This document shows, one piece after another, positions 1 through 18,231 of a stretch of 25,534 nucleotides of DNA. The first letter of the stretch is position 1. Every line of letters starts with the position of its first letter. This stretch comes from a virus. The notes beneath the pieces were generated by a model that was not told the DNA's origin, ran no database searches, and saw nothing but the letters and a program-made list of their open reading frames with translations. The stretch is from IMG/VR virus record IMGVR_UViG_3300036768_000240, positions 1-25,534 of that record; one strand, written 5' to 3'. Made by a program: the position numbers and the translations under genes.

Positions 1-230
1 TCGGCATCGACCGAGTGGGTCGTCGTCTCGGTGGCCTTCAGGTCGGCATCGACCGAGTGGGTCTTCGTCCCGATGGCCTTCAGGTCGGCATCGACCGAGT
101 GGGTCGTCGTCTCGGTGGCCTTCAGATCGGCATCGACCGAGTGGGTCATCGTCCCGATGGCCTTCAGGTCGGCATCGACCGAGTGGGTCTTCGTCCCGAT
201 GGCCTTCAGGTCGGCATCGACCGAGTGGGT
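1..230 (-). repeat. 42-bp in-frame tandem repeat, 6 copies, running off the window
   Basis: The 20-nt core tcggcatcgaccgagtgggt begins at 1, 43, 85, 127, 169 and 211, an exact 42-bp period. On the minus strand each unit encodes THSVDADLKA followed by IGTK, IGTM or TETT. In transcription order the linkers are IGTK, IGTM, TETT, IGTK, TETT, so part of the array has an 84-bp higher-order period. Copies are nearly identical at DNA level, which suggests recent expansion or gene conversion. The array may be longer outside the window. There are no unique spacers, so it is not CRISPR. Confidence 0.97.
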
Positions 231-1319
231 TTTTGTTAGGGTGGCTGGTCCCGGCACCGCGTACTGGAGCATCAATGCGCTCCAGCGCGGGTTCGGGCTG
301 GCGTCGGAGGAGAACCCGACCCGACCCTTCACACCGTTCAAGTTCGTCTGCGTCCATCCGCCGGAGGGAGCCGTGATGATGGCGCTCTTGTAGTTGAGCG
401 CCGTGACGTTCATCCCTCCCGAGTAGATGTCGGTCAGGGTATTTCCGGCCGAGTCTACGATGCGGGTCGTGCCGTTGTTGGCCGAGGTGCTAGTAGAGAC
501 ATAGGCCAAGTACCCGTGGACGCCCCAGATGGTCGTCTCGGTCGTGTCCTCGAACTGCACCTCAGCGTAGTTGCCGGTGCCGTTCCCCGTCTGAGCGATG
601 TAGGTCGTGGTATCGGCAGGCCACTCGTCCACGTCTTCCCAGTAGACGTTCGAGGTCCCGGTCGAAGTTATGACCGAACCGGCGTTCGAGGTACCGTCAG
701 CGTTCGGAACAAGCGCGAGGACCTTGTGAGGGCCGATCGGGTAATCCGTCGAGGTATAGGAGAGGACGAAGTCGTCGTACCAGCAGGTCGCGGTGTGGCT
801 CAAGGAACTCGATCCGAACCGGAACGCGGTCATCGTGGTGGCGGTCTGACCGGACAAGCTCGAAGTGGTCTGGGTAACTCCATCGACCGACCACTCGATG
901 GTATAGGTCGTGGAGTTGGTCAGGATGCGGAAGTCCAGCTGGTGCCAGGCCCCGTCCACGATATTGGGGCCATCGACGATAGCTGTACCACCGAAAGCCG
1001 CCCGGATGAGGCCGGTGCTGGTCACCCAGAACTGGGGGTTGCTCGTCGGCCCTATACAGAGCATGATGACGCTGTTGACCGACGGGTTCGCTGTGAGCCG
1101 GATGTAGAGGCTGCCGACGAGGGCCTGCGAGCTGATGGTCTTTTGGATGTTGGTCGCCGTCACTCCGTCCTCGGCGACCTTGAGCGCAGCAGCGCCCGTA
1201 CGTTTGTTCACCGTGTCGATGGTGACGGCAGCAGCGTTCGAGACGTTGCCCCAGATACCGCCCCCGCTCGTGGAGAGTGTCTGATGCTCGAAGCCGTCGA
1301 TGGTGACAGGAGTGGGCAT
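1..1319 (-). CDS. Tail-fibre/lectin-like structural protein with 14-residue tandem repeats (partial, C-terminus beyond window)
   Basis: This frame is open from an ATG at 1319 to the window edge (439 codons, no stop). AGGAG lies 7-8 nt upstream of the ATG. Residues 1 to about 200 are Thr/Ser/Gly-rich and beta-strand-like, with YDDFVLSY near residue 180, which resembles LamG/concanavalin-A-like lectin domains of phage fibre and appendage proteins. A second beta-rich stretch follows, ending PNPRWSALMLQYAVPGP near residue 360. From residue 364 the protein enters repeats of THSVDADLKA plus four variable residues. I infer a virion surface protein that contacts the host; the lectin fold is suggested, not shown. 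The gene is GC-richer than the genes upstream. It follows the lysozyme gene, separated by a structured RNA. Several open plus-strand frames across it are by-products of the repeat and GC bias. Confidence 0.8.
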   Translation of the reverse strand, partial: MPTPVTIDGFEHQTLSTSGGGIWGNVSNAAAVTIDTVNKRTGAAALKVAEDGVTATNIQKTISSQALVGSLYIRLTANPSVNSVIMLCIGPTSNPQFWVTSTGLIRAAFGGTAIVDGPNIVDGAWHQLDFRILTNSTTYTIEWSVDGVTQTTSSLSGQTATTMTAFRFGSSSLSHTATCWYDDFVLSYTSTDYPIGPHKVLALVPNADGTSNAGSVITSTGTSNVYWEDVDEWPADTTTYIAQTGNGTGNYAEVQFEDTTETTIWGVHGYLAYVSTSTSANNGTTRIVDSAGNTLTDIYSGGMNVTALNYKSAIITAPSGGWTQTNLNGVKGRVGFSSDASPNPRWSALMLQYAVPGPATLTKTHSVDADLKAIGTKTHSVDADLKAIGTMTHSVDADLKATETTTHSVDADLKAIGTKTHSVDADLKATETTTHSVDA

Positions 1320-1344
1320 CTAGCCAATCACTCCTGATGTCTTA

Positions 1345-1415
1345 GTAGTCATAAGCATTGTATTGCCTCACTATGAGCCCATTGTATTGGGCTTTACCAT
1401 AGTGAGTATGACTAC
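1345..1415 (-). ncRNA. Structured RNA: predicted three-way junction with two identical AUACAA hexaloops
   Basis: The 71-nt minus-strand RNA between the lysozyme and tail-fibre genes has three nested perfect pairings. P1 is GUAGUCAUA (1415-1407) with UAUGACUAC (1353-1345). P2 is CUCACUAUG (1406-1398) with CAUAGUGAG (1375-1367), continued across a GUAA bulge by AGCCCA (1393-1388) with UGGGCU (1381-1376), closing loop AUACAA. The remaining 13 nt (1366-1354) form a mini-hairpin P3, GCA/UGC, with the same AUACAA loop. The ribosome site AGGAG (1335-1331) of the tail-fibre gene starts about 9 nt after P1. There is no U-tract, so it is not a simple terminator, and no T-loop, so it is not a tRNA. A 5' UTR regulator, processing site or small RNA are all possible. 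Confidence 0.6.
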
Positions 1416-1435: not shown

Positions 1436-1921
1436 TCAAGCGCACGACCATGGCTCCCATCCACCGTTGTGAGCCATCCTGATTGCGATGATGACGTTCG
1501 CCCTGGTAAGATAGGCGGCTCCTGGGTATATAGTGGCATCGCGGTTGATCCTTTCCCACTGCTGATCAGTGAACCACCGCTTCTTCAGGAAAGAATGAAC
1601 CCTATCACGCCAGTAGTTATCTTTATGCTGGAAAACACCGAGGTTATCCCCGCCTTTGGCCCACGGCCAGAAGCCTGACTCGCATTCAGCCACATCGAGC
1701 GCCTTCGAGGCGCCTCCTGGCACCGACCAGCGATCAGTCACGCACCGGATGAGCGCTTTCACCCGCCTTGCGACCTCATCGTGACCCATGCGTGGCTTCA
1801 CATCGTAGAAGTCGCTTGAGCAGACACCGTAACCAGAGGCATGCGCCTCAGTGAAATTGCCATCAGATATGACAATATTGAATGATACAAAAAGAGCCAG
1901 CAAAATCCGGAAGAACAACAA
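1436..1921 (-). CDS. Secreted lysozyme / lytic-transglycosylase-like protein
   Basis: About 161 residues. The N-terminus is a hydrophobic signal peptide or anchor (LFFRILLALFVSFNIVIS) ending near AHASG. The core contains ALDVAECESGFWPWAKGG followed by DNLGVFQHKDNYW, the E-S-G-F...G-x-F-Q pattern of the SLT/lysozyme-like fold; the Glu of CESGF is the predicted catalytic acid. The C-terminus (AYLTRANVIIAIRMAHNGGWEPWSCA) also fits that fold. A GTG at 1930 abuts the ribosome site GGAGG too closely, so I prefer the TTG at 1921, 8 nt downstream of it. Likely role: peptidoglycan cleavage at lysis or entry. It sits just upstream of the tail-fibre gene, so a virion-associated hydrolase is possible. 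No holin was recognised next to it. Confidence 0.75.
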   Translation of the reverse strand: MLFFRILLALFVSFNIVISDGNFTEAHASGYGVCSSDFYDVKPRMGHDEVARRVKALIRCVTDRWSVPGGASKALDVAECESGFWPWAKGGDNLGVFQHKDNYWRDRVHSFLKKRWFTDQQWERINRDATIYPGAAYLTRANVIIAIRMAHNGGWEPWSCA

Positions 1922-2005
1922 TAATCCCACCTCCGTAAGGTCTTCAGTGGCTGGCCTTCACGGCAAGGTCGTTACTTTCTATCACCCCCTTTATCGTATC
2001 CACCA

Positions 2006-2278
2006 CTAGATGGTCACCAAGTTGTAGTGCCAGGTTATCACCTGGTAGTCGAATATGACATCTTCTTCTTTAAGTCGATCCCTGTATCGCCTCAGTGCGT
2101 CTTGGATTACCTTGACGCATCTGAACCTTAGGTTCTCATGGTCTTCCGGGCTATCACCATAGATGCCCACCACGTACCTGATGTCTTTAGGTGTATCCCA
2201 ACTAAAGGAGATTGACTTCACACCAGGGATTCTGCCGAGCGTAGTGGTAATCTCCTCAACCATGTCGTAAACATTCAC
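2006..2278 (-). CDS. Hypothetical protein (90 aa)
   Basis: This 90-residue acidic/basic mixed protein has no recognised family. It has an N-terminal amphipathic helix (VYDMVEEITTTLGRIPGV), a strand (KSISFSW), a charged helix (CVKVIQDALRRYRDRLKEED) and a C-terminal strand (VIFDYQVITWHYNLVTI), a small alpha/beta layout. It starts at GTG 2278, overlapping the glycosyltransferase stop by 4 nt (GTGA), so translation is probably coupled. No signal peptide or membrane segment is seen. Confidence 0.7.
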   Translation of the reverse strand: MNVYDMVEEITTTLGRIPGVKSISFSWDTPKDIRYVVGIYGDSPEDHENLRFRCVKVIQDALRRYRDRLKEEDVIFDYQVITWHYNLVTI

Positions 2279-3036
2279 CGCTCCATCATCCCTCGCACAT
2301 AATCTGGACTAAGATATTCGGCTGTCCTCACGTAATACCCACCCTCGATACGACCGGCTCTAGCGGACAGGGTATCAGGATGTTCCCTCCGGTACATGGC
2401 CGGGACAGGAATCTTCACATACCCGGCATGATACCTCAAGATGTCGGTGATATACCCTGCATCCCAGGAATGCGGGTGGCCTTTGTAGCCCTTCCTCCAT
2501 TTCACGTCACATTTCCTGAAACACTCAGATCTGTGCGCGAAGGCACCGAGGTTCCACCATGTCGTCGAAGCGATATCCTCTTCCTTTAACTCTATCAGGA
2601 ATCCCAATCTCCCATCCTCGAACGGGTCTTCACCGTCATAGAAGTAGTACATATCGCCCACTACGACATGTAGGTTGGGGTTCTTCATCAACATGTCATC
2701 GACATAAACAAGCCAGTCTGGGTGAAGGATATCATCATCACATAGGTACGTGATGGTCTGCCCGTCAGGTATCTTCGAGAGGAGCCAGTTCATGTTGGTA
2801 GACCATCTGGTGCTTCCAGGGCGTACCCGTTCTTCCGGAGTGACTTTATCAGCAACGGCAAGTACTACTCTATTGTCTCCGATATCCTCTATGACTGACC
2901 GTATGTCGAAGTCGCTCCCATCATCGTAGACCCAACACACTACCTCGGCCTTTGAAGCGAGAACACTCCTTATAGCCTCCCGCACCATACGAGGACGATT
3001 ATACGACATCACGATGACGTTGTTAATCATAGTCAT
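2275..3036 (-). CDS. Glycosyltransferase family 2 (paralogue A)
   Basis: 253 residues. NNVIVMSYNRPRMVREAIRS at the N-terminus is the nucleotide-binding first strand and helix of GT-A enzymes. DDGSDFD (residues 38-44) is the GT2 signature, and LCDDDILHPDWL (DDD at 100-102) is the metal/nucleotide-sugar-binding DXD-type motif. The C-terminus holds YRREHPDTLSARAGR. It is clearly paralogous to the gene at 4199-5047, sharing YNRP, DDGSDFD, EERV, LCDDDI, YRREHP..LSA and the GMME tail. It presumably transfers a sugar from a nucleotide donor; the acceptor (virion protein, modified DNA base or host glycan) cannot be told. Start is ATG 3036, or ATG 3030, which would give an 8-nt overlap with the upstream stop. 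Confidence 0.9.
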   Translation of the reverse strand: MTMINNVIVMSYNRPRMVREAIRSVLASKAEVVCWVYDDGSDFDIRSVIEDIGDNRVVLAVADKVTPEERVRPGSTRWSTNMNWLLSKIPDGQTITYLCDDDILHPDWLVYVDDMLMKNPNLHVVVGDMYYFYDGEDPFEDGRLGFLIELKEEDIASTTWWNLGAFAHRSECFRKCDVKWRKGYKGHPHSWDAGYITDILRYHAGYVKIPVPAMYRREHPDTLSARAGRIEGGYYVRTAEYLSPDYVRGMMER

Positions 3037-3283
3037 AATACTTATGTACTACATAATCGACATCTAACTTGTCAGCAATATAACCGACAACATCGTTAAG
3101 ATATTCAACTGTTTCGACCATCTTCTTGAAAGTATCATTGATGGCGTCTTTTTTCTGCTCAAGCTCTTCTAGTTTTTTTATCCTCCTTTCGAGACGACCA
3201 ACTTCTTTCTTGAGTTCTTTAATCTGATCTCCAGCTATCTGCTCTATCATAGATTCCGGCACATCGACCCTAAGCTTAGCCAT
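3023..3283 (-). CDS. Small coiled-coil protein
   Basis: 86 residues from the ATG at 3283 (MAKLRVDVPE), which overlaps the upstream ligase stop by 8 nt (ATGGCTAA) and has AAGGG about 8 nt upstream; an in-frame extension to 3310 lacks such support. Residues 18-50 are a heptad-rich charged helix (IKELKKEVGRLERRIKKLEE), almost certainly a coiled coil. The C-terminus (NDVVGYIADKLDVDYVVHKY) is a second amphipathic segment. The function is unknown. It lies between an RNA ligase and a glycosyltransferase in a coupled operon, so it may be an oligomerising partner of one of them, but that is only positional inference. Confidence 0.75.
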   Translation of the reverse strand: MAKLRVDVPESMIEQIAGDQIKELKKEVGRLERRIKKLEELEQKKDAINDTFKKMVETVEYLNDVVGYIADKLDVDYVVHKYYDYD

Positions 3284-4202
3284 CTTCATCACCCTTGAAC
3301 TGTAAATCAAGGAGTTTCTGTTTGTACCACTCTGGCAAACCCCTGGTGGATTTCCGTTGGATCTCTGGCAGAATGAACTTCATGAACCTGCCTGCTATGT
3401 ATTCATACTCCTCTTCTGCGATGTCTTCCCATACCTCTTTGAGGATCTTCCCGATGTCACGAGGTGACCACTCTAGTTCTCCGCGCTCATCGAGATGCAT
3501 AACCGCTTTCTGCCACCTGGCAGGCGAACGCAACTCATCCACCAGATGATCGAGAACATCGCCTATGGTCGGATTACCCTTGCGCCACTCCTTCCTGTGA
3601 ACCTCCTTGAAAGATTCAGCCACGTGTTTGCCCATAAGAACCTTCCCGGTCCTCTCGTCGAACATGTCGTAGTTCTTTATGACGACACCCTCGACCTTAG
3701 ACTTGCCGAGCATGCTCTCCCTCTCCAAGAAGGAATCCAGGAAATCTTTAGTTACTTCCTCTCCTGGCATGGTGATGGCATCGACCATCTCCAGTCCGAG
3801 CCTTTCACACTCTGACTTAACTTCATCTGGGCGCAAGAAGTCATTCGGGGCCCGCTCGATGTCGAACACCACGAGGTTACCGACTGGCACCCTACCGTAT
3901 TCGATGGTGTTGTGCCGTTCACGGAAGATTGCCTCGCATCGGTAGATGTAACCAGGAGTAAGTAGCCCCTTCTTGTTGAGTTTCCGCATGGTTGCGATGG
4001 AACGAATGAATAGCTGATTGGTTTCCGTTTCGTATAGGGTTGTCCCCTTGGACCGCATGTAGAGATTGCCCTCTTCATCGACCACAGCAGAGAATTGACT
4101 ACCGTCAATCTTCTCACTCACATGGACGACCCCATCGAGGAGGTTCTTCAGTACCGGATGGCCGAGGTTGTGGACCTTTGGATAAGAGTGTATCTCCATC
4201 AT
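3276..4202 (-). CDS. RNA ligase, Rnl2-like nucleotidyltransferase
   Basis: 308 residues. SEKIDGSQF holds motif I (K-x-D-G, nucleophile Lys31), which would be adenylated by ATP. RSKG near residue 51 fits motif Ia, YRCEAIF and VVFDIE fit the region of motifs III/IIIa, VEGVVIKNYD is motif IV, and GKHVAESFKEVHRKEW near residue 198 fits motif V. A helical C-terminal domain of about 100 residues follows. The layout matches T4 Rnl2-type RNA ligases, which seal nicked RNA, for example in tRNA repair after host anticodon cleavage. A DNA ligase is less likely because no OB or BRCT domain is apparent. It starts at ATG 4202, a 4-nt ATGA overlap with the upstream glycosyltransferase. No polynucleotide kinase is seen nearby. 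Confidence 0.85.
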   Translation of the reverse strand: MMEIHSYPKVHNLGHPVLKNLLDGVVHVSEKIDGSQFSAVVDEEGNLYMRSKGTTLYETETNQLFIRSIATMRKLNKKGLLTPGYIYRCEAIFRERHNTIEYGRVPVGNLVVFDIERAPNDFLRPDEVKSECERLGLEMVDAITMPGEEVTKDFLDSFLERESMLGKSKVEGVVIKNYDMFDERTGKVLMGKHVAESFKEVHRKEWRKGNPTIGDVLDHLVDELRSPARWQKAVMHLDERGELEWSPRDIGKILKEVWEDIAEEEYEYIAGRFMKFILPEIQRKSTRGLPEWYKQKLLDLQFKGDEDG

Positions 4203-5047
4203 TCCATCATCCCTTCGATGTGCTCTCGTTTCGCTGGTGGGGGGATATAGCCTGGCTTATATCTTCCCTCTTCATCTTTCCTGCCCAGCTTAGCAGAAAG
4301 GGCCTTCGGATGTTCCCTCCTGTAAACGGATGGGCTCGGGATATAGAGGTAGTCTGAATGTAGATTCCAGAGATCTAGGATGAAATTAGCATCTTGCGAG
4401 TGGAGATGGTAGTTGTCCTTCCACCATACCCCTTCTTCCTTGCAACACTTCACCCTATGACCGAAACTCCCGGTGGACCAATACGCGATCGGGATGCCTG
4501 ACGCCTCATAGGTAGATAGCCCGTACCTCGCCTCGGCTCTCCAATCCTGGCCATCATCGAAATACCAAGACTCTCCAGCCACGACATGGATAGCCGGATA
4601 GTTTATGAACCCAATCATGGCCCGCAATATCCAGTTCGGAGCCATGATATCGTCATCACAGAGGTAGAAAACTACATCATCGTTATCGAGTGTCTCGATG
4701 ACTGAATTCAGGTTCCTCCCGAGCCGGCTCACCTTTACCCTTTCCTCGACCGGGATTTTCGGAGCCTGAGCGAGCAGCAATCTGGGATTTTCGAACTCTT
4801 TTATAATCCCCCAAACGTCGAAGTCACTTCCGTCATCTACGATGTAGATGTCGAGGTCACCATATTGCTGTTCCAGGACAGACTCGATAGCCTGCCGGAG
4901 CATCTTTGGGCGATTGTACGAAAGGATAAGTACGTTCGCTTTAAACGAAGGCGTGACGGGTTCTTCTTTGAACTGCCGCTCATCCTTGGTCATCATTATA
5001 ATGTCTTTCTGCATGTCGAACTTAGGTTCTTCTATAATCCTTTTCAT
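4199..5047 (-). CDS. Glycosyltransferase family 2 (paralogue B)
   Basis: 282 residues. A charged N-terminal extension of about 35 residues precedes NVLILSYNRPKMLRQAIESV. DDGSDFD lies at 71-77 and LCDDDIMAPNWI carries the DDD motif at 131-133. The C-terminal half (SQDANFILDLW, YRREHPKALSAKLGR, EGMME) aligns by eye with paralogue A at 2275-3036, so the pair arose by duplication. The extension distinguishes the two and may change partner or substrate. ATG 5047 follows GGCGGAG closely; a later start at residue 12, 18 or 19 is possible. The stop overlaps the RNA ligase start (ATGA). Predicted soluble: no signal peptide or membrane helix is seen. Confidence 0.9.
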   Translation of the reverse strand: MKRIIEEPKFDMQKDIIMMTKDERQFKEEPVTPSFKANVLILSYNRPKMLRQAIESVLEQQYGDLDIYIVDDGSDFDVWGIIKEFENPRLLLAQAPKIPVEERVKVSRLGRNLNSVIETLDNDDVVFYLCDDDIMAPNWILRAMIGFINYPAIHVVAGESWYFDDGQDWRAEARYGLSTYEASGIPIAYWSTGSFGHRVKCCKEEGVWWKDNYHLHSQDANFILDLWNLHSDYLYIPSPSVYRREHPKALSAKLGRKDEEGRYKPGYIPPPAKREHIEGMME

Positions 5048-5981: not shown

Positions 5982-6911
5982 TTACCTCGGCCCACCGGGC
6001 AGGGTGAGTGAAAGATCTTTGTCGCTAGGTATAACCCAGAACGTAATCTTACCGGACTTGATTGCCTCGTAGAGGACACACGTTTGACCGCACTCCGTGA
6101 GGGCCTTCTGGCGCTCACGGATGGCCTCGGCCTCGAGCTTGGCCTGCTCGACCTCGTTCAGCTTCGTCTGCACCGCAATCTGCGAGGTCCGGTTGGCCTC
6201 GAACGCCTCCTTCACGGAAGCCGGGATTGAGATATGTTTGATGACGAACGTGAAGTCGGGGCACTCATCCGGACGAGCGATGTTGTACTCAACCCCGCAG
6301 AAGTAGTCATCTCCTAGGACATCGTTGATGTTCTCCTTAAGAGAGATGCCGACTTCGTGCTGGATTTCTGTCAAGGTCTGGCTGTCTGCGTAGATGTCGG
6401 CGACATCGTATTTGCGGGCCTCGCGCTGGAGCGCGAACTCGATCTGCTGCCGGAAGGACTCGGACAGCATGCGCTCCCACCCGCCATCCGTCCAAGCCTG
6501 GTACTTGAGCCCGATGGTCTCGTGGAACTGCCGGATGAGCGAAAGGTTCAGCTTGAAGTAGGTTGCGACCTCGAAGTCAACCTGGATTCGATCACGAGAC
6601 GGAGCAGAGATTGCCCCCTTTATGTCACCCTCATCAGAGCGACTTATGATGTATGAACGTTGAGTAACTGGGTAAAGGTAAATCTTATCCCCCCAACCGT
6701 TGAAGAAGATTGACGAACCTGGCTGCACTACTCCCTGGAAATGTGCTCCCTCAAAGAAACCGCCTCCGTAAGAGAGCCCAATCTTATCCCGAGGAGTTTT
6801 CTTGAAGGGCCATAAAACAGCACCGATTATTGCCGCGATTACCAGCAAGAATATCAAAATCCCCACCAAAGTTTGCACTAAGAGTTCACGAGCACGAGCA
6901 TCAGGGTCCAT
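5982..6911 (-). CDS. SPFH/Band 7 (prohibitin-like) membrane protein
   Basis: 309 residues from ATG 6911, with AAAGGAG 7 nt upstream. After a short acidic N-terminus, one membrane helix runs about residues 11-34 ([20 protein letters not shown]). It is followed by an SPFH-type domain: [48 protein letters not shown], then a helical [23 protein letters not shown] Glu/Ala/Lys-rich coiled helix ([20 protein letters not shown]) fits the C-terminal oligomerisation segment of flotillin/stomatin relatives. Such proteins assemble membrane microdomains or cages around proteases and channels; proteins described this way are also annotated in actinophages. Its start is coupled (TGATG) to a remnant gene fragment downstream of the phosphoesterase. 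Confidence 0.85.
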
Positions 6912-7003
6912 CAATTATCTCCTTTCTCGCTAACTTTCCTGGCGACCCAGTCATCTAACAGATTAACTGGGATTACCGTGCGGCGAATCGGGTCAGCCAT
7001 CAT
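6911..7003 (-). pseudogene. 3' remnant of a duplicate of the 13767-14189 gene
   Basis: A 30-codon frame directly after the phosphoesterase gene reads MMADP...[18 protein letters not shown]. It matches the C-terminal part of the intact 140-residue protein at 13767-14189 (AMMLADP and VNLLDSWVARKVREK). At DNA level 40 of 45 bases agree between 6923-6967 and 13860-13904. Its TGA overlaps the SPFH start as TGATG, so before interruption it was the last part of a gene coupled to SPFH. It is probably a leftover, though still translatable. Confidence 0.75.
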
Positions 7004-7896
7004 AGCGGAATCGGCGTGGCCGACGCCGCGTCACCGAGTCGCGGCAGACCGTAGGCGTCCTCGATTGCGGCGAGGATCGAGTAGTGCGTATACGGTGTCG
7101 CGTCGGTCGAACCGGCCGGAACGTTGGGCCCTACCTCGACCGCGTACAGCGTCCCCGACTCGTCATAGGTCACGATTACCTCGGCGCCAGCGGAGAGCAA
7201 GGGCGGCAGGTTGGCCGCGAGCCAGTCATCACCGCGCTTGTACAGCTCTGGGGTCTTCGGGTAGCAGTTCGCGAACTTCGGCGTGCCATCGGGCCATACC
7301 GCCTTTGTGCCGTGCTGGTCGTTGCAGATACCAGGGGCGATGAATGACACGGCAGGCAGGTTGGCGGGATCGATGCTCGAAAACGGCAGGACGTGCGCCC
7401 GGCACAGAGTCTGGTCGCCGAAGATGCTCGGGAAGGGAGTGGCCGGGTTGTGCTTCAAGGCGTACGGCGTGTCCAACGCGAAGTTTTGATAGTTGGCCTT
7501 CGCGTAACACGGCTGGGGCATCGCATCCTCGTAGACGGCCCAGCTGATGCCCGCGTCCTGGAGCTGGTTCCATAGCGTCGTCGGACAGGCGGCGCCGATG
7601 TCGGCCTCACCGGCTGAGACCTTATCGCTATCTTTGCCGCACCGCGAGCCCGCTGCAATCTCCAGGTAGTCGGGGAGCGATGGGCCGGTGGGGTCACCCT
7701 CCTTGTAGTTGGTGAAGTACCGGCCCTGAGAGACGAGGCTGTTCAGATAGGGCGTGTACGGATTGCCGAGGATCATGGAGGCATGCTTGTTCTCCATGAA
7801 CACAATCACGATCGGAGCGATGCTCGACAACACCGGCGGAGGAGGGGACGCAATCGCGAGTGGGATGAGAGACAGGACCAAGAGCAGTTTCCGCAT
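7000..7896 (-). CDS. Secreted phosphoesterase (AcpA/phospholipase-C-like, alkaline-phosphatase superfamily)
   Basis: 298 residues from ATG 7896, with GGAGG 6 nt upstream. The signal peptide is MRKLLLVLSLIPLAIASP. Phosphoesterase-family marks: IVIVFMENKHASMILGN (conserved M-E-N-K, metal/nucleophile region), TPYLNSLVSQGRYFTNY, LPDYLEIAAGS, EVIVTYDESG (metal-binding DE) and PYTHYSILAAIEDAYGLPRLG, the typical family end. Six or more Cys suggest extracytoplasmic disulfides. It should hydrolyse phosphate esters outside the cell. GC content is visibly above the flanking phage genes. An in-frame extension to 7920 (MSVYRRPA) derives from the interrupted recipient gene, and the TGA stop lies in recipient sequence. 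I read it as a transferred cargo (moron) gene. Confidence 0.88.
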   Translation of the reverse strand: MRKLLLVLSLIPLAIASPPPPVLSSIAPIVIVFMENKHASMILGNPYTPYLNSLVSQGRYFTNYKEGDPTGPSLPDYLEIAAGSRCGKDSDKVSAGEADIGAACPTTLWNQLQDAGISWAVYEDAMPQPCYAKANYQNFALDTPYALKHNPATPFPSIFGDQTLCRAHVLPFSSIDPANLPAVSFIAPGICNDQHGTKAVWPDGTPKFANCYPKTPELYKRGDDWLAANLPPLLSAGAEVIVTYDESGTLYAVEVGPNVPAGSTDATPYTHYSILAAIEDAYGLPRLGDAASATPIPL

Positions 7897-7932
7897 GGCT
7901 GGCCTCCTATATACCGACATCGATTAACCTCT
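7897..7932 (-). pseudogene. 5' remnant of the same interrupted duplicate gene (start region)
   Basis: Minus-strand sequence here gives a ribosome site (AGAGG), ATG at 7920 and codons for MSVYRRPA. It agrees at 29 of 36 positions with 14166-14201, the start of the intact gene (MSVYRGPA). Similarity stops at the ATG of the phosphoesterase. With the 6911-7003 fragment it brackets the inserted gene. Confidence 0.7.
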
Positions 7933-13834: not shown

Positions 13835-14189
13835 GATAACTCCTATCAATCTCTGAAAACTTCTCTCTAACTTTCCTGGCAACCCAGCTATCTAACAGAT
13901 TAACAACCCTTTCTGTACGGAGGTTAGGTTTACCGCTCTCCTCTGCGTCTAGTGAATAGTCGTCAGGATCAGCCAGCATCATCGCAATCTCGCCGACCCA
14001 ATCCCCTGTGTTCGCTATCGTGAACGGTTCAACACCGGCTTTCCCATACCCGAGTAGGTTCAGGAGCCAAAGGAGGTTATCGCGCTCGTACCTATTCAAT
14101 ACGAGCACCCACCGCATCCCTTCATGTGCCCTAGAAGGGGGGAGCCCTTGACCTTCGTAGATGACTGCTGGTCCTCTATATACAGACAT
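13767..14189 (-). CDS. Hypothetical protein, intact copy of a duplicated gene (140 aa)
   Basis: 140 residues from ATG 14189, with AGAGG 7-8 nt upstream. Order: MSVYRGPAVIYEGQGLPP; a helical WVLVLNRYERDNLLWLLNLL (about 27-46); EPFTIANTGDWVGEIAMMLA; then VVNLLDSWVARKVREKF near 95-111 and a charged tail. No family is recognised. The same start and end sequences flank the phosphoesterase at 7000-7896, so a second copy once lay there. The tail beyond residue 111 overlaps the downstream HTH start by 68 nt and is absent from the other copy, suggesting that the frame was extended here. Confidence 0.7.
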   Translation of the reverse strand: MSVYRGPAVIYEGQGLPPSRAHEGMRWVLVLNRYERDNLLWLLNLLGYGKAGVEPFTIANTGDWVGEIAMMLADPDDYSLDAEESGKPNLRTERVVNLLDSWVARKVREKFSEIDRSYHDREEVQQPDRQESSKGDSRAT

Positions 14190-15972: not shown

Positions 15973-18231
15973 TCAGATTAACCCCATCCCGCCGAGATAC
16001 TCTTCTATGTCATCCGGCATCTCTTTCTCCTGGACGTGTTCCTCTCGCTTCTCCTTCTCCTCTTCGTCGCGTTTGACAGATTGCGTAGTACCGAGGATGT
16101 CGATATCGATGACCTCCTCGACCGGAGTATTCACAGTGCAGGTATATACAGCGCCAGCTAAGGAGTCGGCTCCGTCCTTGAACCCCTTCCTTGGGTGATC
16201 GACCTTGTTCCCCCTGATGAGCTGCAACTTCAGGAGTTCCTGATCGACGAGGATGGGATGGTAATACGCACGAAGACGCCCATCATAGATGGAGGTGGAA
16301 AGCGTATCGTAGTGGTCTTTCTTCACCACCATGAACTCCGTGTAGATGCCTTTGTTCATGAAGATGTTCTTCGTATCGACGCTCTGCCACCTGTCCATCG
16401 TCACCATCGCCACATTGAACCTGTCGTTCAGCATGAACACGAATCTGCGAACGTCATTGAAGTCTATCTCGCCGTTCGGAGGGGCTTCCCAATACTTGAT
16501 GAGGTCCATCCGTATCACAGGCATTATCTGCCCATCCGTTTCACTTTTCATGAATCCTTCACAGTGAACCATACACAGCGCAGACCTGTCGCGGTTAAGG
16601 CCGAGGTCGATATGGATGAACCTCGGTGCTGCGCTGTCATCTTTATCCCGGAACATAGGAGGCAGACGCCCTTCCTCGTCGAACGGCGACCGAACGCAAT
16701 ACTTATCCGTACAAGATTCATCGTGTTTATGGAAGCAGGCCATGACCCTATATGGATCGCGGAAATACGCTTCCGCCATCTTCGGTGGCCGGCAAAGGAT
16801 GCGTGCGTTCGCATTCACCGGGTCACGTATGAAGTCGGAGGTGAAATCTTCTGGTTTCTTGGTGGGATTGGATACGAAAGTGGGGCACTTTATAGCCCAT
16901 ACCCTCGGTTCTCGATACTCGAGGATCTCATCATCTTCCCACCATACCGTTATCGGGCCGAGATCCTTCGTCACCTTCCTCGTGATCTTCCTCTCTATCA
17001 CCCCATCGTACCGTTGCTGGATGAAGTCGTTCTCATACCTCGGGAACGAAAGCAGCGCAACCTTTCCGACCTGGGGGAAACGCGAGATGACCGACAGCCT
17101 CGCCATGTCGTAGATGGCCTTAGCAGAAAACTTCACGGATTCTTGGGTGTGGGAAGAGTCATCCTGAGTTTTGAATGCGGAGATCTCGTCCAACGTAACC
17201 GCAATCAGGTTATACCCCTCCCACCCCTCAGCCTCAGAGTGGCCAGAGAAACACCTGATGGGTCGCTCCATGAACTCGATCTTCTTGCTCATCGGGATGA
17301 ACCCCTTCTTCTGGAAATACGGGCTGGCGATGAGCAAGTTCTTCAATGGGTCGAAGAATACCCGTTGTGCCTGCTCGGAGTTCAGAGCGATGTTCAGGAG
17401 GTCGATGTACTCCCCATGACCGATACCGTAATAGTCAAGTGGGTCCCTTAAGCAATGCATCAGATAGATGATCCTGGCGAACGCTATACGAAGGGTATTG
17501 CCGGTCAATATATTGCCCTCTAAGGTGAAGTTATGTATCTCTGGAACGTCCGGGCAATATGTTTGTTCAACCCTATCCGTTTCCTCGACCGATACCACCT
17601 TCCAGTGAGCCTCTGGGCCAGGATGGATATCGCGATGCTCATAGTTAACCTGTAACCAACTACCCGGCACCAAGTCGCAAGTGTAAGTCTCTTCGAACTT
17701 CCTCTTGGCCCTATCTAAGGTCTTAGTCGCAAACCATCTGTGATATCTGGTCGTGTGGATCTCTTTCGTTTCGTCGCCCCGTTTCACAACCAACTTCCAT
17801 ATCGGAAGCACACTCGTCTCGAGGACCTTAGCTTCTTTCCATCCCTGCGAAGTCAGCAGCGTCTGAACGGTGTTCGCCACATCCCCGATCTTCCTTATCC
17901 CGTCTTTGGTGATTATTTCGGTTTCATACGCGAAGCACCAATCTTTCCCCCCACCTTTGCCGATCTGACATATAACCTCATTTACCGTGGACTCCCAGAT
18001 CTGTTGCGCTTCCTTCTTCCCATGCATCTTCTCTAGTGTGTGGGGGAGGAAGATCTGGGTCATCTTCGACGCGATCTGCTCCTGTACAGGAGACAGTGGT
18101 TTAAGCCCTAAAAAATACGGGTCCGTCACGAACCTATGCAGATCGACCGGCTCTTCCTCGAACTCCTCCTTCTGGAGCAAAGACCTGAAGTCTTCAAGCG
18201 TTATGTTCCCGCCGAATCTACGCATGGTCAT
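15973..18231 (-). CDS. terL: Terminase large subunit interrupted by a mini-intein
   Basis: 752 residues from ATG 18231 (4-nt ATGA overlap with the upstream gene). Walker A is QIGKGGGKDW (89-98), split by an intein (99-245) and resuming at TLRIA; without it the protein is 605 residues, normal for TerL. Walker B is NLIAVTLDE (about 341-349). The RNase-H-like nuclease domain shows IHIDLGLNRDRSALCMVH (D542, D548), VTMDRWQS (D613) and FKDGADSLAGAVY (D686/D689), suitable metal ligands. The C-terminus is acidic and charged. The enzyme packages DNA into proheads with ATP and cuts concatemers; since the intein splits the ATP-binding loop, it cannot work until spliced. Confidence 0.95.
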   Translation of the reverse strand: MTMRRFGGNITLEDFRSLLQKEEFEEEPVDLHRFVTDPYFLGLKPLSPVQEQIASKMTQIFLPHTLEKMHGKKEAQQIWESTVNEVICQIGKGGGKDWCFAYETEIITKDGIRKIGDVANTVQTLLTSQGWKEAKVLETSVLPIWKLVVKRGDETKEIHTTRYHRWFATKTLDRAKRKFEETYTCDLVPGSWLQVNYEHRDIHPGPEAHWKVVSVEETDRVEQTYCPDVPEIHNFTLEGNILTGNTLRIAFARIIYLMHCLRDPLDYYGIGHGEYIDLLNIALNSEQAQRVFFDPLKNLLIASPYFQKKGFIPMSKKIEFMERPIRCFSGHSEAEGWEGYNLIAVTLDEISAFKTQDDSSHTQESVKFSAKAIYDMARLSVISRFPQVGKVALLSFPRYENDFIQQRYDGVIERKITRKVTKDLGPITVWWEDDEILEYREPRVWAIKCPTFVSNPTKKPEDFTSDFIRDPVNANARILCRPPKMAEAYFRDPYRVMACFHKHDESCTDKYCVRSPFDEEGRLPPMFRDKDDSAAPRFIHIDLGLNRDRSALCMVHCEGFMKSETDGQIMPVIRMDLIKYWEAPPNGEIDFNDVRRFVFMLNDRFNVAMVTMDRWQSVDTKNIFMNKGIYTEFMVVKKDHYDTLSTSIYDGRLRAYYHPILVDQELLKLQLIRGNKVDHPRKGFKDGADSLAGAVYTCTVNTPVEEVIDIDILGTTQSVKRDEEEKEKREEHVQEKEMPDDIEEYLGGMGLI
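17497..17937 (-). other. Mini-intein (147 residues) in the TerL Walker A loop
   Basis: Residues 99-245 of TerL have intein splicing blocks. Block A is CFAYETEIITKDGIRKIGD (Cys1). Block B is HTTRYHRWFA, with the T-x2-H motif at 161-164. Block F is VPEIHNFTLEGN and block G is ILTGN, ending in Asn245; the first C-extein residue is Thr246. No LAGLIDADG or HNH endonuclease is present and the size is minimal. The penultimate residue is Gly rather than the usual His, which can slow Asn cyclisation. Removal joins GKGGGKDW to TLRIA and restores the P-loop. Confidence 0.88.

Follow-up and report, generated by a model that had tools for sequence, protein, structure and literature searches.

The window analyzed here, a 25.5-kb virus record (25,534 nt) from an uncultured phage whose genes lie on the minus strand, contains a small intergenic element that belongs, at the level of sequence and structure, to a family of RNAs built from two hairpins closed on the same hexaloop. 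This family is previously uncatalogued and occurs in many unrelated bacterial viruses. The comparison of its members revealed a conserved, covarying twin-hairpin element in two expression contexts and linked to a protein of approximately 135 amino acids, designated DN. We consider it fairly probable that the window element belongs to a family of phage cis-regulatory RNAs, controls the DN/tail-fibre module, and is probably read by a loop-binding protein, with DN as the leading candidate.

The genes flanking the element (1436–1930 and 3–1319) are both on the minus strand, which is therefore taken as its mRNA strand; a plus-strand reading was dropped because the genes and start codons lie on the minus strand. 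The features of the region are as follows.

1436–1930, minus strand: upstream gene, 164 aa, function unassigned by family searches
1345–1415, minus strand: whole three-way-junction RNA (minimum free energy [MFE] fold, z −8.3), kept at locus L004 of the close relative G001, where one pair is missing and another has been added
1415–1407 with 1353–1345, minus strand: outer stem, 9 bp (GUAGUCAUA/UAUGACUAC; MFE fold)
1367–1406, minus strand: long hairpin (MFE fold), found only in the window and L004
1406–1398 with 1375–1367, minus strand: second stem, 9 bp (CUCACUAUG/CAUAGUGAG), with a GUAA bulge at 1397–1394
1376–1393, minus strand: family hairpin 1 (MFE fold and model match), stem covarying in relatives
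1393–1388 with 1381–1376, minus strand: stem of hairpin 1, AGCCCA/UGGGCU, 6 bp; hexaloop AUACAA at 1387–1382
1355–1366, minus strand: family hairpin 2, the mini-hairpin (MFE fold and model match), stem covarying in relatives
1366–1364 with 1357–1355, minus strand: stem of hairpin 2, GCA/UGC; hexaloop AUACAA at 1363–1358; AUG inside
1353–1393, minus strand: match to covariance model R1, 40 bits, E 9.8e-8
1366–1369, minus strand: GAGG, Shine-Dalgarno (SD)-like, 7 nt before the hairpin-2 AUG and inside the stem/spacer (from sequence)
1320–1358, minus strand: 12-codon ORF from the hairpin-2 AUG, MLMTTKTSGVIG and a UAG stop that abuts the fibre AUG
1331–1335, minus strand: AGGAG, SD of the fibre-like gene, outside the fold (from sequence)
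3–1319, minus strand: fibre-like gene downstream of the element, with 14-aa repeats, running off the contig

The predicted MFE structure (−33.1 kcal/mol) is exactly the three-way junction described in the first-pass annotation, with every stem and loop in its place on the transcript strand, and none of 200 shuffled sequences was equally stable. The AUACAA loop and the 10-nt string that were reported as duplicated do occur twice (CAAUACAAUG), while AATACAAT is found nowhere else in the window, and the ribosome site reported about 9 nt past the closing stem corresponds to AGGAG, which starts after 9 nt. Pairs of identical hexaloops are not rare on their own, with approximately 25 non-family pairs in 618 kb of phage strands when the stem thresholds were loose; the signal beyond chance is the fold energy together with the recurrence of the element in other phages.

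Neither the fibre-like gene nor the 164-aa upstream gene matched Pfam or PHROG, so that the earlier label “lysozyme” for the upstream gene is left unsupported, whereas “tail fibre” agrees with the 14-aa repeats and with the general appearance of the sequence but has no family match behind it. The 42-bp tandem repeats encoding them (14-aa, THSVDADLKA-type) occupy window positions 1–287 within this gene, and because the window and G001 both end inside such repeats, the sequence beyond them is missing. Elsewhere in the window, a terminase large subunit (15973–18231, minus) is approximately 41% identical to its counterparts in Streptomyces phages (e.g., StarPlatinum and Karimac), and an RNA ligase, an SPFH/band 7 protein, a phosphoesterase, and two family-2 glycosyltransferases are encoded at 3276–4202, 5982–6914, 7000–7920, 2275–3036, and 4199–5047 (all minus). 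A 44-bp direct repeat, 91% identical and 7 kb apart (6924–6967 and 13861–13904), is possibly a second regulatory or duplicated element. A phage DNA similarity search with the window returned no relatives, and none were found among named phages for its upstream protein, the fibre, UP (a neighboring protein used below), or DN.

The arrangement CAAUACAAUG-spacer-CAAUACAAUG was found in about 70 uncultured phage contigs, and the pattern CAATACAATG-N(8–38)-CAATACAATG in 103 viral stretches, with spacers concentrated at 8–14 nt, most of those copies having complementary flanks. Coding repeats (Q-Y-N; L016, L024, L027, L031, L076, and others) were excluded as false pattern matches, and a CTCACTATGGTAAAGCCC match in L003 was set aside as a chance occurrence in coding sequence. 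When 257 Gb of bacterial genomes were scanned in a similar way, most matches were stemless repeats, the clear exceptions being a 1.1-Mb Daviesbacteria (Patescibacteria) contig and two other MAG contigs. In the Daviesbacteria contig (320–339 kb, L312), the element lies in what, read by eye, appears to be the structural operon of a prophage, apparently one of a Patescibacterium. For sampling independent of the motif, loci were collected by searching with UP (alignment A4): approximately half had twin loops behind UP, and many others had variants or a single motif. Some phages had a single loop motif only, at the start of DN. Single CAAUACAAUG start codons with an SD also occurred in phages with the element. 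The covariance model R1, trained without the window, found the window element as its only match there, although its seed pattern came from the window, so that the loops match by construction while the stems and context are independent. R1 describes two hairpins with AAYNCAAU-type loops approximately 18–28 nt apart, and the window element conforms to this description. Among 20 records, several of them fragments, 17 carried one copy of the element, one carried two, and two carried none. Nine element records, when compared, had little in common beyond UP, DN, and the fibre, which are widely recurrent; a short gene for a zinc-finger-like protein, described below, was recognized subsequently.

No Rfam 15 family reached its gathering score in the window, where positions 1250–1500 gave only two chance snoRNA matches (E 6–9.5). 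Eight relatives gave no match, and a further check of 15 relatives gave only two chance matches of miRNA type lying off the element (E 0.26 and 0.51). The element thus has no Rfam match, and it was not found described in the literature searched. In L226 and L227, downstream of position 2414, the same locus instead holds twin hairpins that share a quite different hexaloop (UUACCG/UUACCU) and are accompanied by a terminator.

The stems of both hairpins covary. In the UP-derived set, to which no stem filter was applied, pairs 1–3 of hairpin 1 exceeded shuffles by z values of 7.0, 10.2, and 9.1, and those of hairpin 2 by 8.4, 5.2, and 3.8, where the main signal stops. In a 67-sequence alignment, covariation was 0.461, compared with 0.123 when shuffled and at most 0.086 when slid; because the rows of this alignment were selected with some stem, the UP-derived set gives the fairer comparison. 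Directly under the hexaloop, G-C replaces the A-U pair in L233/L238 and L235/L242, which supports the hexaloop as first drawn. Within the stems, G-U pairs occur no more often than A-C; thus, pairing alone does not prove RNA over single-stranded DNA, and the strand is identified from context and not from wobble pairs.

Meanwhile, the loops vary in a matched manner. The variants AUACAA, ACUCAA, AUCCAA, AUGCAA, and AUUCAA are mostly identical in the two copies within an element; the few mixed pairs usually differ by a single base, and eight apparent AUACAA/AUGC-type pairs are register artefacts. On the UP tree, the label ACUCAA/ACUCAA required 10 changes for 11 rows, at least seven of which were forced by supported branches, indicating many occasions on which the two loops changed, or were exchanged, jointly. 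The suggestion of the first-pass annotation that one factor recognizes the hexaloop twice is well supported by these comparative data, in that the twin hairpins recur, their stems covary, and their loops usually change jointly.

The closest relative of the window, G001 (IMGVR_UViG_3300010938_000067, 44 kb; loci L004, L287, L288, and L313), encodes an upstream protein 92% identical to that of the window and carries the same element. In its outer stem, the innermost A-U pair is lost and a C-G pair is gained at the opposite end, and a C inserted near hairpin 1 could lengthen the second stem. The outer stems of the three-way junction were seen only in the window and L004 among the relatives, and because the differences in G001 are one-sided, the junction rests on energy and conservation, not covariation. 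The three-way junction is not a general feature of the family, and its outer stems show no compensatory change; the stems of the twin hairpins covary in relatives.

The downstream context was compared in 87 elements, including those of the window and L004, and two expression platforms were distinguished from their sequences. In the first, the start codon of the next gene lies in the second loop, often with an SD in the spacer: among the 54 elements without a terminator, an ORF of at least 60 aa began at the second AUG in 40, the spacer was SD-like in 27, and spacer:downstream pairing was seen in four. In the second, the spacer is predicted to be an antiterminator strand competing with hairpin 2 and a downstream terminator. 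A strong terminator-like hairpin followed 33 of the 87 elements; spacer:downstream pairing exceeded swapped controls in 20 of these, while few had an SD-like spacer (3/33) or a second AUG opening an ORF of 60 aa or longer (4/33). In nascent-RNA folds, the spacer initially paired with the 5′ portion of the terminator, a pairing that gave way to hairpin 2 and the terminator; in other words, the antiterminator and terminator of these relatives are mutually exclusive, as in an attenuator. The earlier remark that no terminator is matched is correct for the window, but approximately one-third of the relatives carry an intrinsic-terminator-like hairpin with the element. The element is usually close behind the stop codon of the upstream gene and is thus intercistronic. 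The window copy fits neither common platform: it has no terminator, its main start codon is outside hairpin 2, and its spacer pairs upstream (CUCACUAUG) instead. This mismatch weakens the claim on how the window copy works, whereas the sequence-structure match is unaffected. Since the 12-codon ORF that starts at the second AUG (frame and stop preserved in L004) runs up to the fibre AUG, control in the window may pass through this short ORF or through coupling.

DN accompanies the element closely. An iterated profile found it in 57 of 68 element loci, compared with 5 of 34 other pattern matches (p 1e-11), a count in which the 68/34 split was made by judgement, near-identical contigs were kept separate, and the five resemble real elements. 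A search of whole records further detected DN in four element records lacking it in the fetched locus and in G001 (match at 40482–40841, E 3e-29; DN at 40476–40913, corresponding to L313:1976–2413, plus strand), where 39 kb separate it from the element, which is on the other strand; DN is absent from the 25.5-kb window fragment. Furthermore, over 34 loci, the ACUC loop class required three changes on the DN tree, a number as low as which was reached in none of 500 shuffles, whereas on the UP and zinc-finger trees of the same loci it required seven changes each, the same as when shuffled. The loop type therefore tracks the DN tree and not the trees of the upstream genes. This association fits co-evolution of the loops and DN as well as joint transfer of the element and DN, and the two may track each other through moving as one block.

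DN was predicted with high confidence to be all-beta (pLDDT 96.6). Fold-library searches gave nothing convincing (VIA-align Z at best 4.3, Foldseek E at best 0.04), with no PDB match and no recognizable RNA-binding fold, and therefore no fold-based function is claimed. Sequence searches gave only weak matches to an unnamed PHROG, and DN is a new protein family accompanying the element. Two other neighbors were considered as loop binders. In many phages, the gene that follows UP and immediately precedes the element (e.g., L018:5276–5443, plus; L012:442–615, minus) encodes a conserved 55–70-aa protein with a CxxC...HxC zinc-finger-like motif and a basic tail; the cysteines are lost in some phages, and this protein was rejected because the loop class fails to follow its tree. 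The gene of a KhpA-like KH-domain protein (PF13083, E 9e-17) adjoins the UP gene in two phages (L125:1867–2145, minus; L053:684–965, plus) and was rejected because it is found in few loci only.

In the mechanism we favor, the two hairpins with a (nearly) identical hexaloop lie in the intergenic region upstream of DN and/or the tail-fibre gene, and a trans-acting factor would bind both loops. If both hairpins were held closed in this way, the ribosome site would be hidden in the start-codon form, and in the terminator form the antiterminator would be broken and the terminator could fold; in either case, expression of the downstream gene would be reduced. As the leading candidate for this factor, singled out by its co-occurrence with the element, DN would autoregulate its own gene and would also control the fibre gene where DN is encoded elsewhere, as in G001. 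Loop binding, DN as the binder, repression by binding, and the role of the short ORF in the window are inferred, and control through the 12-codon ORF or coupling is the least certain step. More tentatively, and with less confidence than in the regulatory role itself, we suggest a new RNA class in which an all-beta DN would read two identical hexaloops with co-evolving specificity, the same aptamer pair being plugged into a start codon or a terminator and so governing how strongly the tail-fibre module is expressed.

The same regulatory RNA could instead be read by a host factor, for example the KH domains of NusA (boxC-like sites) or another general RNA-binding protein, which would suit phages that have few other genes in common; we regard this as unlikely, and it would leave unexplained why the loop type follows DN. 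NusA acts at terminators, and the loop allele AACUCAAU matches the core of an RNA reportedly co-crystallized with Mycobacterium tuberculosis NusA. The entries 2ASB and 2ATW are NusA entries, and binding of NusA to boxC is cited in PMC6614801. However, the commonest allele, AAUACAAU, mismatches, and no AAYNCAAU was found in the rrn leader of the element-carrying Daviesbacteria genome, one likely host genome.

Slightly less likely still, there may be no dedicated reader, the motifs being favorable start contexts or mRNA-stabilizing hairpins and the twins a by-product of CAAUACAAUG duplication. The single CAAUACAAUG start codons with an SD in the same phages, the DN genes with one copy only, and the expectation of approximately one identical hexaloop pair by chance per 25-kb strand (loose thresholds) agree with such an origin; it is at odds with stems that covary under constant loops, with loops that change pairwise, with closing pairs that turn from C-G to U-A and destroy the AUG, and with terminator-type elements at which no gene starts.

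It is very improbable that the hairpins act in single-stranded DNA as a recombination point for fibre-module swapping. The element does travel with the DN/fibre module among otherwise unrelated phages, and G-U pairs are not in excess over A-C; nevertheless, a module flanked by two or more sites is not what the records show, most of them having one copy and hence no flanked cassette, and the SD/start-codon and antiterminator platforms run in transcript orientation. Least probable of all is that the window fold is an incidental stable intergenic RNA (e.g., an mRNA stabilizer) and no working family member. Its platform is unlike both common types and its outer stems lack compensatory change, but it matches the model at E 1e-7, occupies the same position before a fibre-like gene, and has a closest relative that encodes DN.

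The regulatory element favored here has partial parallels among known systems. The phage-encoded protein gp43 of T4 represses translation of its own gene by binding a hairpin loop that adjoins the ribosome site (PMC3014915). By analogy with the T4/RB69 gp43 operator, and also with the gp32 and RegA sites, the SD-type element would work alike, but the gp43 operator has one hairpin, no identical loop pair, and no attenuator form, gene 43 encodes a DNA polymerase, and no sequence relation between operator and element was found. The TwoAYGGAY RNA motif is defined by two hairpins sharing one loop; it is alike in having a same-loop hairpin pair, but the loop and context differ, and the element has no Rfam match. 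In the BglG/LicT RAT, PyrR, and TRAP attenuators, one strand chooses between antiterminator and terminator, and a protein-bindable hairpin overlaps it. The element has a similar choice with an overlapping hairpin, but differs from these attenuators in its twin identical hexaloops, in its association with a phage tail module, and in the use of the same loops at start codons; no homologue of a known regulator was found. The nut/boxB sites of lambda and put of HK022 are small nascent-RNA hairpins that are read by proteins and affect terminators. The LoaP hairpin is of the same kind (PMC12691694). Unlike these, the element usually occurs once in a phage and is placed right on a single terminator or start codon, and its spacer pairs with the terminator. 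Because its loop binder is inferred, we file it under neither translational operators nor attenuators.

If this interpretation is correct, phages known from sequence alone harbor a regulatory RNA family of wide distribution together with a protein family lacking a known fold match, and the jointly changing matched loops would constitute a natural series of RNA-recognition specificities. The use of one twin-hairpin pair in two expression platforms makes the mechanism directly testable by simple reporters. Furthermore, the element bears on how phages dose their fibre genes, the genes of host recognition.
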